This document shows positions 28,061-52,364 of a stretch of DNA of 64,000 bases, in pieces. Under the pieces are notes generated by a model. That model was not told where the DNA came from. It did no database searches and was given only the letters and a program-made list of their open reading frames with translations. The DNA is from a virus. Position 1 is the stretch's first letter, and each line of letters begins with the position of its first letter. The translations under genes and the position numbers were made by a program. The DNA is taken from the IMG/VR virus record IMGVR_UViG_3300036832_001373, positions 1 to 64,000 of that record; one strand, 5' to 3'.

Positions 28061-28753
28061 ATGCCTGAATGCTATAACTGTGCAATTTGCGGGAAGGAAT
28101 TTTATAAGAGTTTCTTCCGTCTTCACATAGAAGATGTTCATAGTATCTCACCACAGAGATACTATCACCAATACTTAAGTCCAGGGACTATTCCTAATAG
28201 GTGTCTAAAATGTGGGAAAGAATTAAAATTTATTAAGTTATCTAAGCCTTATGGAGATTTTTGTAGTAGATCATGCAGATCATCAACTGTAATGTCTTCC
28301 TTGAATAAGGAATGGTGGACAGATCCTACTTATCGAGAATTACATTCTAAACTTTCGTCTGAGACGATGACTAAAACCTTAAATAGAAGATGGGCTGATC
28401 CAATTCAAAGAGAAGAAATGATTAAGAATACTAGAAATGGATTAATAAGAGTAATAAAAGAAGAAAATCATGTCCCTTATATGACTAAAGGAGAATTTTT
28501 AATTAGAGACTATCTGTCGAACCTAGGGTTTAATCATAGTTATCCCTATTGGACAAAGAATAAAGTTCAAATTAAGATGGATTTCTTCAATAAGATCACT
28601 AAGGTAAACATAGAAATTGATGGTACTTCTCATGAAAAATCTGAGACTCAGGAATACGACTCTTACAGAGATTGTATTCTAGAAGAAGAAAACGTGTTGA
28701 TAGTTAGGATTAAGGACGAGGATTGTAATTATATAAAGGACATATTTAGATGA
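28061..28753 (+). CDS. Vsr-like homing endonuclease with zinc fingers
   Basis: 230 residues. The N-terminal C2H2-type finger (CAICGKEF, then HIEDVH) is followed by a treble-clef-like RCLKCGKEL and FCSRSC, then repeated WADP-type DNA-binding spacers. The C-terminal nuclease domain (TKGEFLIRDYLSNLGF, then IKMDFF, then NIEIDGTSHE) matches Vsr/PD-(D/E)XK-like endonucleases of the I-Bth0305I type. It abuts the topoisomerase gene, which starts at its stop (ATGA), a typical site for a mobile endonuclease gene. Confidence 0.75.
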   Translation: MPECYNCAICGKEFYKSFFRLHIEDVHSISPQRYYHQYLSPGTIPNRCLKCGKELKFIKLSKPYGDFCSRSCRSSTVMSSLNKEWWTDPTYRELHSKLSSETMTKTLNRRWADPIQREEMIKNTRNGLIRVIKEENHVPYMTKGEFLIRDYLSNLGFNHSYPYWTKNKVQIKMDFFNKITKVNIEIDGTSHEKSETQEYDSYRDCILEEENVLIVRIKDEDCNYIKDIFR

Positions 28754-42093: not shown

Positions 42094-42464
42094 TGCGTCC
42101 TCTTATAATTGATGGAGTAGCTAGAGCTAAGATAGCTCACGTTAAGAGTTACGCCGAGGAAAATCCATATTACCCTGGAGCTACAGGTATACCTGGAGAT
42201 GACGAGAAATATGTAGCTCGTTTAGGTACTTTTAGGTGTGTATTTACTCATACTCATCACAAAGGTAACGTATACCGTCACTTAACTATATCAGTGCCAA
42301 GTGCTAAGTACCCAAACCCAGTAGCCGCTTTTATTATAGCACAAGAGTTTGGATTTATAGGATGGGATGGTGAAACTGTTGATAGAGCACCAGACACTTG
42401 GTCGATAGATGTGAATAAAAAGGAGCATTGTATCGTTCTTGTACAGGAGGTCAAAGAAGAATGA
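42093..42464 (+). CDS. Hypothetical protein
   Basis: 123 residues. Contains CVFTHTHHKGNVYRHLTISV and FIIAQEFGFIGWDGE. Overlaps the SbcD start by 4 nt. Function unknown. Confidence 0.6.
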   Translation: MRPLIIDGVARAKIAHVKSYAEENPYYPGATGIPGDDEKYVARLGTFRCVFTHTHHKGNVYRHLTISVPSAKYPNPVAAFIIAQEFGFIGWDGETVDRAPDTWSIDVNKKEHCIVLVQEVKEE

Positions 42465-43780
42465 AAAATCTAAGACTAGCAATCTCAGCAGATTGGCACC
42501 TTTCAGACTGGAGTCAGTTCTCAGAAATTGACGGTACAGGACGTCCAAGTCGTCTACTCCAGTATAATGAACTTGCTAAAGATTTTGTAAAGTTTGCTAA
42601 GGACAATAAAGCTGATTGTGCAATTATAGCTGGAGATATTGTTGACCAGTTTGGTGTTCTAAAGCCTATGGTATCTGACGTTCTAGATTCAGTAATTACC
42701 ACTATAAGTGAGAAATTTCCTCTATTTATAACTCATGGTCAGCACGATATAAATACAAAATCCGAAGAGATAGCTAGTTACCACAGTGCTCTTTCTAGAT
42801 TTAAAAGTAAGAACAATGTAAGTTATGCGAGCGTCCCTGTTCAATATACTATTGATAAGTATACATTATTAATAGCTCCATGGAACTCAGAACATAGTAT
42901 ACCAACTGATTTAGTTGGTGATATTTTTATAGGACATGGTGCAGTTCAAGGATCTACTAATCTTGAAGGGTATAAGTTTAGCTCAGGATTCAATCAAGAA
43001 GAATTATTCAAAAGATTTAGATTATCTATTATTGGTGACATTCACAATGGGCAGGTTTTTAGAAATACTGAAGAAAGAAAGATACTCATTCCTGGAACTC
43101 CTATTCAGTTTAATTATAAAGATAGTCCAGTATGTGGATTTTGGTTATGTGAACTCATGCCAGGAGATGTGAACTGTGAGTTTGTTCCTATTGAACGCAT
43201 TCATCCTGATTTCTATCATAGGTTTCTGCTTACTACTGACGAGAAAGCTACCTCCTCAAGACTAATTCATTATAGATATAAACCAGAAAAAGTTTCAAAA
43301 GAAAAGATCTCTAAGTCTGAGTTCAAACGAGATACAACTTCTATAATAGATATAGGTTTAGAAATTATTAAGCAATCTAAGATTTCTAATCAAGATGAAA
43401 TTGCTAAACAGTTTAGATCATTAATGGATGGACTATCTTCCTCTGATAGAAAAGTTCCTAGGTCAAGACTTCTGTATCTCAATATACAAGGATTTCTTTC
43501 AATCGAAGAGTTGTCTCTAGAGATGAAAGAATTTCCAGATAACTTAGTCCTTGTAGGTAAAAACGGACATGGTAAAACTGCCTTAGTTGAAGCTATTTAT
43601 TGGGCTCTTTGCGGTAAAACAACTAAGGGAGTTTCAGCCAATGATATTATAAATTGGTATGGAAATGGGGAATGCGTGGTAAAACTGGGTATTGAAGTAG
43701 AAGGAGTTATATATCAGATTACTAGATGGAGAAAGAATGGCGTTCCTGGTTTAGAACTTAACGTTTGGAGTCCAGACTAA
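42461..43780 (+). CDS. SbcD nuclease fused to N-terminal lobe of SbcC
   Basis: 439 residues from ATG 42461. Residues 1-310 are a calcineurin-like phosphoesterase (DWH at 11-13, GDIVD at 58-62, GQHD at 93-96, GDIHNGQ near 197), equivalent to SbcD/Mre11/T4 gp47. Residues 330-439 are the N-terminal ATPase lobe of SbcC/Rad50/gp46 (LNIQGFLSIEELSLEM, Walker A GKNGHGKT near 365, YWALCG). The polypeptide ends at LNVWSPD, where SbcC should continue; the rest is at 44490-45935, beyond an inserted endonuclease gene. The complex resects DNA ends for recombination. Confidence 0.85.
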   Translation: MKNLRLAISADWHLSDWSQFSEIDGTGRPSRLLQYNELAKDFVKFAKDNKADCAIIAGDIVDQFGVLKPMVSDVLDSVITTISEKFPLFITHGQHDINTKSEEIASYHSALSRFKSKNNVSYASVPVQYTIDKYTLLIAPWNSEHSIPTDLVGDIFIGHGAVQGSTNLEGYKFSSGFNQEELFKRFRLSIIGDIHNGQVFRNTEERKILIPGTPIQFNYKDSPVCGFWLCELMPGDVNCEFVPIERIHPDFYHRFLLTTDEKATSSRLIHYRYKPEKVSKEKISKSEFKRDTTSIIDIGLEIIKQSKISNQDEIAKQFRSLMDGLSSSDRKVPRSRLLYLNIQGFLSIEELSLEMKEFPDNLVLVGKNGHGKTALVEAIYWALCGKTTKGVSANDIINWYGNGECVVKLGIEVEGVIYQITRWRKNGVPGLELNVWSPD

Positions 43781-44487
43781 TGAGAAAAGAATGGAAAAAT
43801 CAACAATATCAATTAGTCCTTGATAAATGGGAAGAAGACTACATAATAAAACTATACACAGAAGATAATTTAAGTCCGTACACTATTTCAGATAAACTAA
43901 AGTCAGAAAAAACTTTTGGAGAAAATCCTCCGGGTAAAAGTTGGATAACAAATTTCCTCACTAGAAAAATGGTATGGACTGGATCGAAGTCAGGTCGTCC
44001 CAAAAGTAAATCCCACAGAGAAAGTATTTCTATAGCTACCATTCAGAGATACTCTGATCCGGAACAAAGAAAAGTAACATCAGAGGCTAAAATTGAATTT
44101 TACTCAAGTCCTGAGAATAGAAAACTCCAAAGTGATAGGATGAGGAAGTCTATTGAAAATGGATTTACACCCTACTTATCAAAAGGGGAATTTTTAGTAA
44201 AAGAGTTTTTAATGGAAAAAGGATTTAGACATCAGTATACATTTATTACAAGTAGATCAGAAGAAGGATTTCAAAAATCTAATTTTAGATTAGATTTCTA
44301 TCATCCAGAGTTAAGAATAAATATTGAAATAGATGGAGTATCTCATGAATGGAACAATGTTATAGAAAAAGATTTAGAGAAAGATCTAATTCTTAGATCC
44401 CTCGGAGTTAGAGTATTCAGAGTTAAAGAAGATTCAAATTTGAGATCAAATATAGAACGCTTAATAAATCAAGAACTAGGAGATTGA
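43780..44487 (+). CDS. Vsr-like homing endonuclease splitting SbcC
   Basis: 235 residues. ATG 43780 overlaps the stop of the SbcD-SbcC gene. An HTH-like N-terminus (LYTEDNLSPYTISDKLKSE) and WTGS-type spacers precede the nuclease domain (SKGEFLVKEFLMEKGF, FRLDFYHP, NIEIDGVSHEW, RSLGVRVFRVKE), homologous to 28061. The gene occupies exactly the gap between the two SbcC halves with overlapping starts and stops, leaving no room for an intron. Confidence 0.8.
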   Translation: MRKEWKNQQYQLVLDKWEEDYIIKLYTEDNLSPYTISDKLKSEKTFGENPPGKSWITNFLTRKMVWTGSKSGRPKSKSHRESISIATIQRYSDPEQRKVTSEAKIEFYSSPENRKLQSDRMRKSIENGFTPYLSKGEFLVKEFLMEKGFRHQYTFITSRSEEGFQKSNFRLDFYHPELRINIEIDGVSHEWNNVIEKDLEKDLILRSLGVRVFRVKEDSNLRSNIERLINQELGD

Positions 44488-44489
44488 CT

Positions 44490-45935
44490 ATGGGATGGAA
44501 ACCTTACACAAGTAATACTACATCAGGTACTCAAGATACGATTCATGAACTTTTAGGTCTTTCTCAAGATGAGATTAAGCTTTTGTCTTACTTCTCGGCT
44601 AAAGCTCCGTCACTTTATGGAACATTGACCAAGTCAACAAGATACGATCTCATTTCAACTATAGCAGGTATGAGCGATGTAGATAAAGCTAGAGATATTA
44701 TAACAGATCTTCATGCTAAGACTTCAAGAGAACGTATTACTTCAGAGTCAGCTATATCTACACTTAAAAATGTCGAGGCCTCAAGTAAAGCTCGTATAAA
44801 AGACTTTCTTTCTAGAAAGGACACGAGAGTTTCAGTTAATACTCAAGCAATAGAGTCTCTTAAGCTAGAAGCTGAGGAGCAAATTAAAAAGTCTAGAGAT
44901 GAAAAAGAATTACGAGAGCTTATCGGAGAATGCTATAAAAAGTATAATGAATATCAGAGGGAACTCTCTAAACTTAATACGTCAGTACATCAATTAAACT
45001 TTGAATACGAAAGTATAAACTCGTCAATAACATCTAATCGAGATAAGTTAAAGAAGGCTTTGCAGGGAAAATGTCCAACTTGTGGCCAGTCACTTCATGA
45101 TGAAAACGTAGTAAACGATCTGACACACTTACTATCTCAACTTCAAGATAGACTTCCAGATATGAGTATTGCTTTTTCTCATAGAAAGAAGATTGGAGAT
45201 ATACAAGTCAATATTGAAGACAGTGAAGCTTTGAGAGCTCTTAGAGAGAAAGAACTTGAAAATCTTCAGTACTGGAAAGGTCAACTTTCTCTTTATGAGA
45301 AGAAACTCGCAGAAGTAAATAAGGAAAAAGTTGACTACGACTCGTTGATTAACGAAGAGATGAAAAATCGTGAGGAGTTGGAAAATAAAATTAAGTTAGA
45401 GGAATTTAAGCTTGAGGAAATCTCCGATAAAGAGTCAGCACAAAATTGGATAAAACTAACATTGCTCAAACGTAATGGTTTGTTGATAACTGAACTTTCT
45501 AAGCAAGGAAAGAAAATTCTCCAGGAACAGATTAACGAGTTAACGTATGGAGAAGATATTGAAGTTTTGGTTCAAGACGATCTTAGTGTCTCAGCTAAAT
45601 TTCTTAAGAGAAAAGAGGGAGACTATGAGTCACTGTCAACTGGCCAGTCCAGAGTTGTAGATATCGTAATGATGGTAGCGTTAAATAATGTCTTTATGAA
45701 ATTCTACGGACTAGAGACGGGACCGCTAGGATTAGTTATCTTTGACGAAGTATTGTCGTTCCTGGACGAAGAGTACGTAGACCTTTGTTATGAATTAATA
45801 CAGAAAACTAATGTGCCTAAGAGAATAGTAATTACTCATGATACCAAGCTAATAAGTAGATTCAATAGTCAAATAAACGTCTCCTTGAAAGGAGAAACTA
45901 GCTCTACCTACAAGAAAAACTGGAGTTCACAATGA
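44490..45935 (+). CDS. SbcC/Rad50-like C-terminal part
   Basis: 481 residues from ATG 44490 (TTG 44484 is also possible). It starts where SbcC should resume (TQDTIHELLGLSQDEIKLL). Coiled-coil arms flank the zinc hook CPTCGQ (near residue 194), followed by the C-terminal lobe with signature LSTGQSRVVDI (near 382) and Walker B VIFDEVLSFLD (near 417). Should assemble with 42461-43780 to rebuild the ATP-driven end-resection complex. Confidence 0.85.
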   Translation: MGWKPYTSNTTSGTQDTIHELLGLSQDEIKLLSYFSAKAPSLYGTLTKSTRYDLISTIAGMSDVDKARDIITDLHAKTSRERITSESAISTLKNVEASSKARIKDFLSRKDTRVSVNTQAIESLKLEAEEQIKKSRDEKELRELIGECYKKYNEYQRELSKLNTSVHQLNFEYESINSSITSNRDKLKKALQGKCPTCGQSLHDENVVNDLTHLLSQLQDRLPDMSIAFSHRKKIGDIQVNIEDSEALRALREKELENLQYWKGQLSLYEKKLAEVNKEKVDYDSLINEEMKNREELENKIKLEEFKLEEISDKESAQNWIKLTLLKRNGLLITELSKQGKKILQEQINELTYGEDIEVLVQDDLSVSAKFLKRKEGDYESLSTGQSRVVDIVMMVALNNVFMKFYGLETGPLGLVIFDEVLSFLDEEYVDLCYELIQKTNVPKRIVITHDTKLISRFNSQINVSLKGETSSTYKKNWSSQ

Positions 45936-49790: not shown

Positions 49791-50463
49791 AATGCTCCCA
49801 CCTATTTTTACAACACTTCATCAACTGTCGTCTGTCTCTAGATACTCTAGAGATTATATGACTCATAGAGAAAGTGTTCTTGAACACACTGGATTCGCTG
49901 GACTTTTTGCTCTTTTTATAGCTAAAAGATTAGATAAAGACGTACTTAGTCAAAACCAAGATTTCATAGGTCTTGACTTTGGAGAACTATTAACTAGAGC
50001 GTTAGTTCACGATATTGATGAAACAATTCTTGGAGACATAAGTCGTACTACAAAATACTACGCACCAGAGATTAAAGAAATGTTTAGTAAGATTGAATCA
50101 GAATCAGTAATTGATCTGACAAAGTTTATAGGAGTTGATATAGACAAAGCTTGGAGTAGAGCAAAAGATGCTACTCTCGAAGGTTATATACTTAAACTTA
50201 CTGATCTAGCAGCAGTTGTTTACATAGTATGGAGAGAAGTAACCCTTCTTGGAAATCTCTCAATGCTTAGAGTAGCTGAGGAAGTAGAACAATTTCTAAT
50301 TAAATTCAAACTACCTCATCATGACGAGTTGAGTAAATTCTTTGGAGGTATAGTTGAAGAATTAAAAAGTATAAACAGAATGGCTTTGGATAAGCACCAG
50401 GATCTACTTAAGAACAATCGAGATATGTTGTTTTCGTTTCCAACCTTCGAGAGGAAAGAATGA
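49780..50463 (+). CDS. HD-domain phosphohydrolase (YfbR-like)
   Basis: 227 residues from ATG 49780. RESVLEHTGFAGLFALFIAK supplies the first His, RALVHDIDETILGDISRTT the HD pair and following Glu/Gly, and KLTDLAAVVY the final Asp. The order fits YfbR-type 5'-nucleotidases acting on deoxynucleoside monophosphates. Likely nucleotide-pool metabolism, consistent with the ThyX-like and deoxyribosyltransferase genes next to it. Confidence 0.8.
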   Translation: MSNKMLPPIFTTLHQLSSVSRYSRDYMTHRESVLEHTGFAGLFALFIAKRLDKDVLSQNQDFIGLDFGELLTRALVHDIDETILGDISRTTKYYAPEIKEMFSKIESESVIDLTKFIGVDIDKAWSRAKDATLEGYILKLTDLAAVVYIVWREVTLLGNLSMLRVAEEVEQFLIKFKLPHHDELSKFFGGIVEELKSINRMALDKHQDLLKNNRDMLFSFPTFERKE

Positions 50464-52364
50464 ACCGAGAAAAAGTTAGTCAGCTAGTTAGAGATAAAAT
50501 TCTAGTCGAATTACTAGACGACAGATTGCTTTGTGCTTCTGGATTTAGTATCGACTTCTACCTAAGTAAGTCGTCCTTAAAAGAAACAATCTACCAAGAA
50601 ACAGATTTTCTAAGAAAAGAATCTAGACTTGTTGAGAGAGTCTACTGTTATGTACATGACTTAAAGGAAAAACCTAGATGCGTTATATGTAGGAAAGTGA
50701 CAAAATTTAGAGATTTCCAAGCTGGGTATCAACATACATGTTCGAGAAAATGTTTAGGCGTAGTAAAAATGAGAAATTATAACTTTGGTGAAAAGTATTC
50801 TGAATCTAGAAGACTAAGAAACATAGAAGGAGGAAAACGTTTGAGAGAATGGTCTAATTCAGAAGAAGGGATTTTAGCAAAGAGAGAACTTGGAGGATTT
50901 ACCTCCTACGGAGGAGGTTCTAAGTACGAAGACTATGCTTGGGTATATTTAGAACCATTAGGATTTGTACGAGAATTCAGAGTGAATTCTCAGGGAAAGT
51001 TTTATAAATTTGATTTCTTCAGTAAGAAGTATAATCTATTAATTGAATTAGATGGGTCAATTCATAGACATCCAAATAGGAAAACTCAAGATCAAGAAAA
51101 GACAGAAGTAGCTAAAGATCAGAAATATAACTTGTTAAGATTAATTCATAACGATAGTTTCCAGGAAATTTGGGAGTCCCTTAGAAAAGAGTTATCCACT
51201 TACTTAAGTGATGAAGAAAAAGAGGTCTTAAATATAAGATTAGTTCAAGATAAAGTTGAATTACTGTCATCTACATACGACTCTAAAATATCAGTTGAAG
51301 CCTGGGTTCATTCTAGACCAAAGGAAGAGTGGGATAATATCGATTGGCAGTCAGTTATCTCTATAGACGCACCAGTAAACGAGTTATACTCTATAGCTCT
51401 AATAATACGAGCTCCAATCTACGTAAGAGACATGATATTCTCCTTAAGAGACTATAGTGGATGGTCCCAAACAACCAGAGTATTACCAATACAAGAGATA
51501 TTAGATATCTCTTATTCTTCTAGAAACAAATTTAATAAATATATAGAGATATACAAAGAGATTCTTAAACTTAGGAGAGAAGGATTATCTCAAGATAATT
51601 TTAGACTGGAGCTGCCACTCTCATTTAGTTCAGAATTCTGTCTTAGTATCTCGTTAAGAAGTCTAGTTAAATTAGAAAAATACCTAAATAAATTTTCATT
51701 GGAAACTAAATGTTTAGGATTAAAGGAATCTCTAATCAGCATTAGTTCTCAGATAAAAGAAAGAATTCAGGAACTGCTGGAGGGTAATCAAGAGGATTAC
51801 CAGAAATGGTTTAAGAACTATTCAATACCAGAATTTTTAGGTTCTCTAGACAAAGAACTAGATATCTCTGAGAGATATGGGGATGCAATTATTATTGGTA
51901 CAAAAGTACCTCTAGCCTTAAGAGCTCAGATTATTAGACATAGAAATTTGATATTTTCAGATTCTTTTAAGAAAATTCTTCTAGAACAAGATGCAGATGA
52001 AAGACAAATTAAAGACGAAGTTCACATGGAAATATTTTCGACTGTTGAGATGTGGAACTCTATCTTAAAATCTAGACAATGTTGGATTTCTCAAGGAGAT
52101 CTTTGGTCTCCTATTATAAATAAGGCATTGAAACATACAACGATAACAGAAAAAGATCTACCATGTGCCGATGGAACTTGTCCTTATTCCAGAGATGCTG
52201 AGATACGATACACAATAAATGATCCAGGAAGTCCTTGTCCACTTTATTCTCTAAGAAATAGAAAGAAACTTACAGAACAAAAACTACAGTCATTAAGGAC
52301 TGACTTAGAGAGTAGACCAGAGTTTTGGAAGAGTATCTCAAAAGAACTAGAAAGGATGGGATAG
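50460..52364 (+). CDS. Homing-endonuclease domain fused to ThyX-like domain
   Basis: 634 residues in one frame. Residues 1-240 look like the Vsr-like endonucleases at 28061 and 43780: zinc module RCVICRKVTKF and TCSRKC, then FYKFDFF, LLIELDGSIHRHPN and DQKYNLLRL. From about residue 275 the protein changes to SVEAWVHSRPKEEW, LIIRAPIYVRDMIF, WSQTTRV and PLALRAQIIRHRNLIFSDSF. These resemble ThyX-related phage proteins (flavin-dependent thymidylate synthase; the RHR segment is its hallmark). The C-terminal half has extra Cys residues. An in-frame insertion creating a chimeric protein is the simplest reading. Confidence 0.65.
   Translation: MNREKVSQLVRDKILVELLDDRLLCASGFSIDFYLSKSSLKETIYQETDFLRKESRLVERVYCYVHDLKEKPRCVICRKVTKFRDFQAGYQHTCSRKCLGVVKMRNYNFGEKYSESRRLRNIEGGKRLREWSNSEEGILAKRELGGFTSYGGGSKYEDYAWVYLEPLGFVREFRVNSQGKFYKFDFFSKKYNLLIELDGSIHRHPNRKTQDQEKTEVAKDQKYNLLRLIHNDSFQEIWESLRKELSTYLSDEEKEVLNIRLVQDKVELLSSTYDSKISVEAWVHSRPKEEWDNIDWQSVISIDAPVNELYSIALIIRAPIYVRDMIFSLRDYSGWSQTTRVLPIQEILDISYSSRNKFNKYIEIYKEILKLRREGLSQDNFRLELPLSFSSEFCLSISLRSLVKLEKYLNKFSLETKCLGLKESLISISSQIKERIQELLEGNQEDYQKWFKNYSIPEFLGSLDKELDISERYGDAIIIGTKVPLALRAQIIRHRNLIFSDSFKKILLEQDADERQIKDEVHMEIFSTVEMWNSILKSRQCWISQGDLWSPIINKALKHTTITEKDLPCADGTCPYSRDAEIRYTINDPGSPCPLYSLRNRKKLTEQKLQSLRTDLESRPEFWKSISKELERMG

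Follow-up and report, generated by a model that had tools for sequence, protein, structure and literature searches.

The stretch of DNA analysed here (the window) comprises bases 1-64000 of the IMG/VR virus record IMGVR_UViG_3300036832_001373, which measures 147,529 bases as a whole. At 42461-45935, on the plus strand, it carries three consecutive open reading frames (ORFs): the first part of a fused sbcD-sbcC gene (ORF1), a homing endonuclease gene (HEG) and the remaining part of the fused gene (ORF2), as listed in Table 1. An earlier note on this DNA, made from the sequence alone, had described a split fusion gene at this locus, and both its coordinates and its end point for ORF1, at LNVWSPD, are correct by the ORF positions.

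Table 1. Features of the split sbcDC locus, in window positions
Feature	Position	Strand	Details
ORF1 (sbcDC-N)	42461..43780	+	439 amino acids; ATG 42461, TAA 43780; ends LNVWSPD
ORF1 product			SbcD/Mre11-type metallophosphoesterase plus first ~105 residues of the SbcC/Rad50 N-lobe, including Walker A
TAATGA, ORF1 stop/HEG start	43778..43783	+	one-base overlap; from the sequence
HEG	43780..44487	+	235 amino acids, free-standing; ATG 43780, TGA 44487; DUF559, PHROG 559
Insert	43778..44495	+	718 nucleotides; starts at ORF1 TAA stop, ends with ORF2 ATG GGA; from codon alignment with L008 and L013
Shine-Dalgarno AGGAG in HEG end, with ORF2 ATG	44478..44492	+	CTAGGAGATTGACTATG
ORF2 (sbcDC-C)	44490..45935	+	481 amino acids; ATG 44490, TGA 45935
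Q-loop region	44574..44615		ORF2 residues 29-42

Profile searches divide the two enzymes over the ORFs as follows. ORF1 matches PHROG 100 (SbcD) over residues 1-309 and PHROG 77 (SbcC) over residues 287-428, with Metallophos and AAA_23 as Pfam matches over the cut-off, and it contains the motifs DWH (residue 11), GD (58), GQHD (93), GHG (158) and GDIH (192) as well as the Walker A motif GKNGHGK (366). ORF2 matches positions 405-953 of the PHROG 77 profile and holds the remainder of the N-lobe, the coiled coil, the zinc hook CPTC, the signature LSTGQ, the Walker B motif VIFDE, the D-loop and the THD. Jointly, the two ORFs possess the phosphoesterase motifs, both Walker motifs, the signature motif and the zinc hook. 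SbcD and SbcC do not share one ORF in the window, the chain being cut within SbcC. The SbcC N-lobe had been placed in ORF1; this applies to its first part, namely Walker A and the next beta strands, and not to the rest, which sits in ORF2. Judged by its sequence, the pair is a derived, split member of the SbcDC (Mre11-Rad50) fusion family.

Uninterrupted relatives were found by an alignment-based scan of IMG/VR in the records IMGVR_UViG_3300036828_000667 (L008) and IMGVR_UViG_3300036798_000218 (L013/L021), both of which encode SbcD and SbcC in a single ORF (929 and 915 amino acids, respectively, in the frames used). Single-protein searches of IMG/VR with ORF1 or ORF2 returned nothing, alignment queries being needed, and a nucleotide search of phages gave no match. 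ORF1 is 55% identical to the L008 fusion, and ORF2 46% over 478 residues. In L008 the fusion gene sits between a helicase and a primase gene that match window genes at 52% and 51%, respectively, and since these adjoining genes are conserved too, the L008 gene represents the orthologous locus. More distant single-ORF fusions are present in six phages (Xanthomonas phage phiXF1, Rhizobium TM61, Thermus phiLo, Yersinia GN1, Escherichia IME392 and Vibrio 1.031.O). All six align throughout with the protein obtained by joining the window halves, except that the GN1 annotation lacks the first ~75 residues. Once aligned, the seven fusions together proved too diverse to be scanned for a pattern.

A search for such relatives had been proposed in the earlier note, which regarded separate sbcD and sbcC genes at this boundary as evidence against its own interpretation; no relative shows them. 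Stenotrophomonas phage BUCTxx99 has separate genes, a single metallophosphoesterase ORF and, after it, a single unsplit AAA ATPase ORF. The statement that an SbcD-SbcC fusion is itself unusual has to be given up, as the fusion was described in 2011 for Mimivirus, plasmids, eukaryotes and a Bacillus phage (PMC3175470) and recurs in at least eight phage records. The fusion is not new; new is the target gene of the HEG split. Rhizobium phages TM39 (L030, RHph_TM39) and TM21B (L031, RHph_TM21B) were considered as further cases of a split sbcDC and rejected, the interruptions being runs of N in partial genomes, with no HEG. In both deposited genomes, sbcDC is falsely split or unannotated owing to these runs. 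The HEG adjoining gene 46 of Cronobacter leB was rejected as well, as it is located downstream on the other strand and leaves gene 46 unsplit.

The codon alignment with L008 and L013 fixes the insertion exactly. At the junction the host gene reads ...AGT CCA GAC / TGG AAA CCT TAC..., and the insert lies between GAC and TGG. Not one host codon was lost, and the additions are a TAA to ORF1 and Met-Gly to ORF2. Residue 3 of ORF2 (the W of MGWKPYTS) aligns with the residue following the end of ORF1 in the intact relatives; SbcC resumes at WKPYTSNTTSGTQD, 12 residues earlier than TQDTIHELLGL, from which the earlier note had let it continue. The 5-bp sequence GACTA occurs as a direct repeat on either side of the insert (43775 and 44486), and a repeat so short is expected by chance. 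For the arrangement itself chance is excluded, because both halves align end to end, with no residue missing at the join, with the single ORFs of two relatives. Apart from any function of the pieces, the insertion of the HEG into the gene is almost certainly real. The known alleles of this site are limited to the occupied one and empty ones that have diverged.

The junctions carry signals for translation. T4 nrdA/mobE has the same TAATGA stop/start arrangement as ORF1 and the HEG, taken there as translational coupling (PMC2988022), and translation of the HEG is probably coupled to that of ORF1 via this sequence. The AGGAG in the HEG end lies seven bases 5' of the ATG of ORF2, itself 2 nucleotides past the HEG stop, and no stable hairpin sequestering this Shine-Dalgarno sequence was found; ORF2 is probably initiated at its own site. 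Stop and start codons had been said to overlap at both junctions. They do so between ORF1 and the HEG; an overlap between the HEG and ORF2 needs a TTG start at 44484, and the ATG at 44490 is preferable.

In an alignment with Methanocaldococcus Rad50 (3aux, 5f3w), the position of the break is that of KNGK in AKLYKNGKPYA, past Walker A and ahead of the Q-loop region. On inferred secondary structure it reads as a hairpin turn between two strands of the N-lobe. An AlphaFold2 model of intact L008, built from 6 sequences and of low confidence, has strands 422-431 and 434-442 preceding the split at 445/446; this model is poor in the ATPase (predicted local distance difference test, pLDDT, about 30-50) and was left out of fold matching and geometry. 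The seam between SbcD and SbcC lies ~105 residues upstream of the break, which is not at the seam. Because Walker A is in ORF1 and Walker B and the signature are in ORF2, ATP hydrolysis by the mechanism known for Rad50 requires both products.

The HEG product gave DUF559 over the cut-off and PHROG 559 (HNH/homing endonuclease) as profile matches. Its C-terminal nuclease domain (residues ~132-235) was modelled by AlphaFold2 with a pLDDT mostly of 70-92 and matches I-Bth0305I (3r3p) with a Foldseek probability of 1.00 and VIA Z 10.0 (2.7 A root-mean-square deviation over 88 residues), E. coli Vsr (1cw0) with Z 9.0 and the DUF559-like protein 3hrl with Z 10.5. The matches of this domain to I-Bth0305I and Vsr support an EDxHD fold, in line with the Vsr-like endonuclease that had been reported. 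The candidate catalytic residues D172, E183, D185, H189 and D198 do not vary in any of six homologues, and E137 is present, though not conserved in all. The nuclease domain has the fold of I-Bth0305I and may also have its acidic/His active-site pattern. Unlike that enzyme, described as intron-encoded, the window HEG is free-standing and has a different N-terminal region; this region, which is poorly modelled, is putatively DNA-binding by analogy with the architecture of such endonucleases (PMC3943268).

We favour, at a probability of about 0.8, that the locus is a working gene in pieces, in which a HEG has inserted into fused sbcDC and the two polypeptides re-associate. A free-standing EDxHD (I-Bth0305I/Vsr-type) HEG would have entered the single fused sbcDC of a large phage; from the insert, the upstream half has its in-frame stop, and the downstream half both its ribosome-binding site and its start codon. 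The phage would tolerate the break because the gene still yields two re-associating polypeptides. These would assemble via the beta-sheet interface that is normal for a Rad50 N-lobe. Two of the resulting pairs would dimerise via the zinc hook and ATP into a complex that would resect DNA ends like SbcCD or T4 gp46/47. The endonuclease, in turn, may cut co-infecting relatives in their uninterrupted sbcDC or in DNA close to it, upon which the HEG would be copied in through double-strand-break repair. By Pfam, the record contains one Rad50-type ATPase and one metallophosphoesterase; no second copy of either was found in the 147.5-kb record, itself possibly incomplete. Dividing the nonsynonymous distance between the window and L008 by the L008-L013 distance gives 0.294/0.117 = 2.5 for the N half and 0.390/0.152 = 2.6 for the C half, and because these ratios are nearly equal, neither half shows more decay than its partner. 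Moreover, the products of HEG-split nrdA and gene 43 assemble and stay active (PMC2988022).

Several points weigh against a working gene in pieces. No additional tail or interaction domain is discernible where the gene is broken; a close relative sharing the insert was not found and the synonymous distance (dS) is saturated, leaving selection after the split inseparable from selection before it; the insertion may be a recent one, in a single genome, that is still to be purged; and host SbcCD may be taking over. The Q-loop glutamine, present in the other phage fusions, is also absent from the window and from L002, L008, L013 and phiXF1, with YFSAKAP, YFPAKSP and YFSTNSL in this lineage. As intact L008, L013 and phiXF1 lack it too, its absence is not decay. 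The missing tails and the unmeasurable selection, together with the parting of Walker A from Walker B, could be expected if the insertion had broken the gene, so that its fragments are translated into no working enzyme and the phage uses SbcCD/RecBCD-type functions of the host, or none. We consider this unlikely, given that both frames are fully open (439 and 481 codons) with all motifs retained, that neither half has drifted faster than the other, that ORF2 has a good ribosome-binding site and that the comparable nrdA and gene 43 splits keep their activity (PMC2988022).

A single full-length protein could still arise if the insert were an unrecognised intron or were bypassed in translation, as phages are known to have HEG-bearing introns and, in T4 gene 60, bypassing, and as the insert is codon-exact save for its two added codons. 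This is very improbable: no Rfam intron was found over the locus at E<=5, an Rfam search of the insert at E<=10 gave just two eukaryotic chance matches, far below threshold, and the insert RNA folds no better than its shuffles (z-score -0.2). The HEG ORF occupies 708 of the 718 nucleotides, leaving no room for a ribozyme outside it; ORF1 is closed at the junction by an in-frame stop, ORF2 begins at a start of its own, and joining at the codon boundary would still require a 718-nucleotide jump. A Pfam scan saw no intein domain in the halves either. Least probable of all, and hardly credible, is a chimeric metagenome assembly that placed the HEG in the gene. The record is a single metagenomic contig, and the two Rhizobium phage records above appear split in the same gene solely through gaps of N; against this, the junctions of the window are functional to the base, with the ORF1 stop overlapping the HEG start and a ribosome-binding site in the HEG tail, the codon usage of the HEG matches the phage, there are no Ns, and two related HEGs of the same type lie elsewhere in the record.

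By the features tested, the split sbcDC belongs with the genes split by free-standing HEGs: the gene is intact in two relatives, in L008 at the same locus, the ORFs jointly cover the whole protein around the HEG, and no intron or intein was found. EDxHD (I-Bth0305I-type) HEGs are said to have been first described by Dassa et al. in 2009 (cited in PMC12350094) between the halves of fractured genes, where split inteins (or introns) carried by these halves reportedly rejoin the protein. The sbcDC halves differ from such genes in that no intein or intron was found in them. Aeromonas phage Aeh1 nrdA/mobE, named earlier as the closest precedent, is an apt one, as a free-standing HEG there divides the gene of an essential phage enzyme, within a functional region, into two cistrons with no splicing (PMC2988022). 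The window differs in its target, SbcD-SbcC, in its EDxHD/Vsr rather than HNH endonuclease and in having no tails added at the break. T4 topoisomerase gene 39/60 with mobA and Aeromonas phage 25 DNA polymerase gene 43A/43B with seg43 are likewise HEG-associated splits of DNA-metabolism genes, the halves of which co-assemble (PMC2988022), yet the genes are others and their HEGs are of the HNH or GIY-YIG type. In gene 43 it is uncertain in which order the events took place, whereas in sbcDC the intact relatives fix the site to the codon. The parental gene, SbcD then SbcC in one chain, resembles the fusions of Mimivirus R555 and Bacillus phage 0305phi8-36 (PMC3175470); unlike those single ORFs, the window fusion has been cut again, within the ATPase and not at the SbcD/SbcC seam.

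The literature searched yielded no earlier report of an sbcC, rad50 or gene 46 split by a HEG, which is not proof of absence. In the literature examined HEG-split phage enzymes are few (ribonucleotide reductase, topoisomerase and DNA polymerase), and the Mre11-Rad50 complex is now added to them. The split places Walker A and Walker B of an ABC-type ATPase on different chains, with diverged uninterrupted relatives fixing the break to the codon, and provides a natural two-chain design for studying the assembly of the Rad50 nucleotide-binding domain. It also raises the question whether a HEG gains by settling in a gene for double-strand-break resection, a process that free-standing HEGs need for homing; gp46/gp47 have been listed as possible homing functions (PMC2988022). 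If true, a selfish element has lodged in a repair gene that it may exploit for its own copying. The full picture, a split Mre11-Rad50 with a nucleotide-binding domain built in trans from a nuclease plus Walker A chain and a coiled-coil plus Walker B chain, brought about by a HEG possibly dependent on that very resection gene, is one we put forward tentatively, at a little under even odds.

Other endonuclease genes occur in the window and in its relatives. A third HEG of the same family (28061-28753) is 32% identical over 168 residues and has a different N-terminus with a Cys-rich start; its end overlaps the start of an intact topoisomerase II large-subunit gene by 4 bases. At 50460-52364 a ThyX-like protein carries at its N-terminus, as an in-frame fusion, a second DUF559-type nuclease domain (residues ~1-250); its ThyX-like part (residues 265-634) is 33% identical to the stand-alone phiXF1_88 of 395 amino acids; a HEG is here joined to a nucleotide-metabolism gene instead of splitting one. 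Apparent HNH, GIY-YIG and LAGLIDADG-type HEGs, as judged by eye, lie between the same core genes in L008 (5320-5838, 10611-11282 and 14504-15058) and L013 (5266-5982 and 8761-9339), and from these sequences the phage group seems rich in different HEGs in the same neighbourhood.

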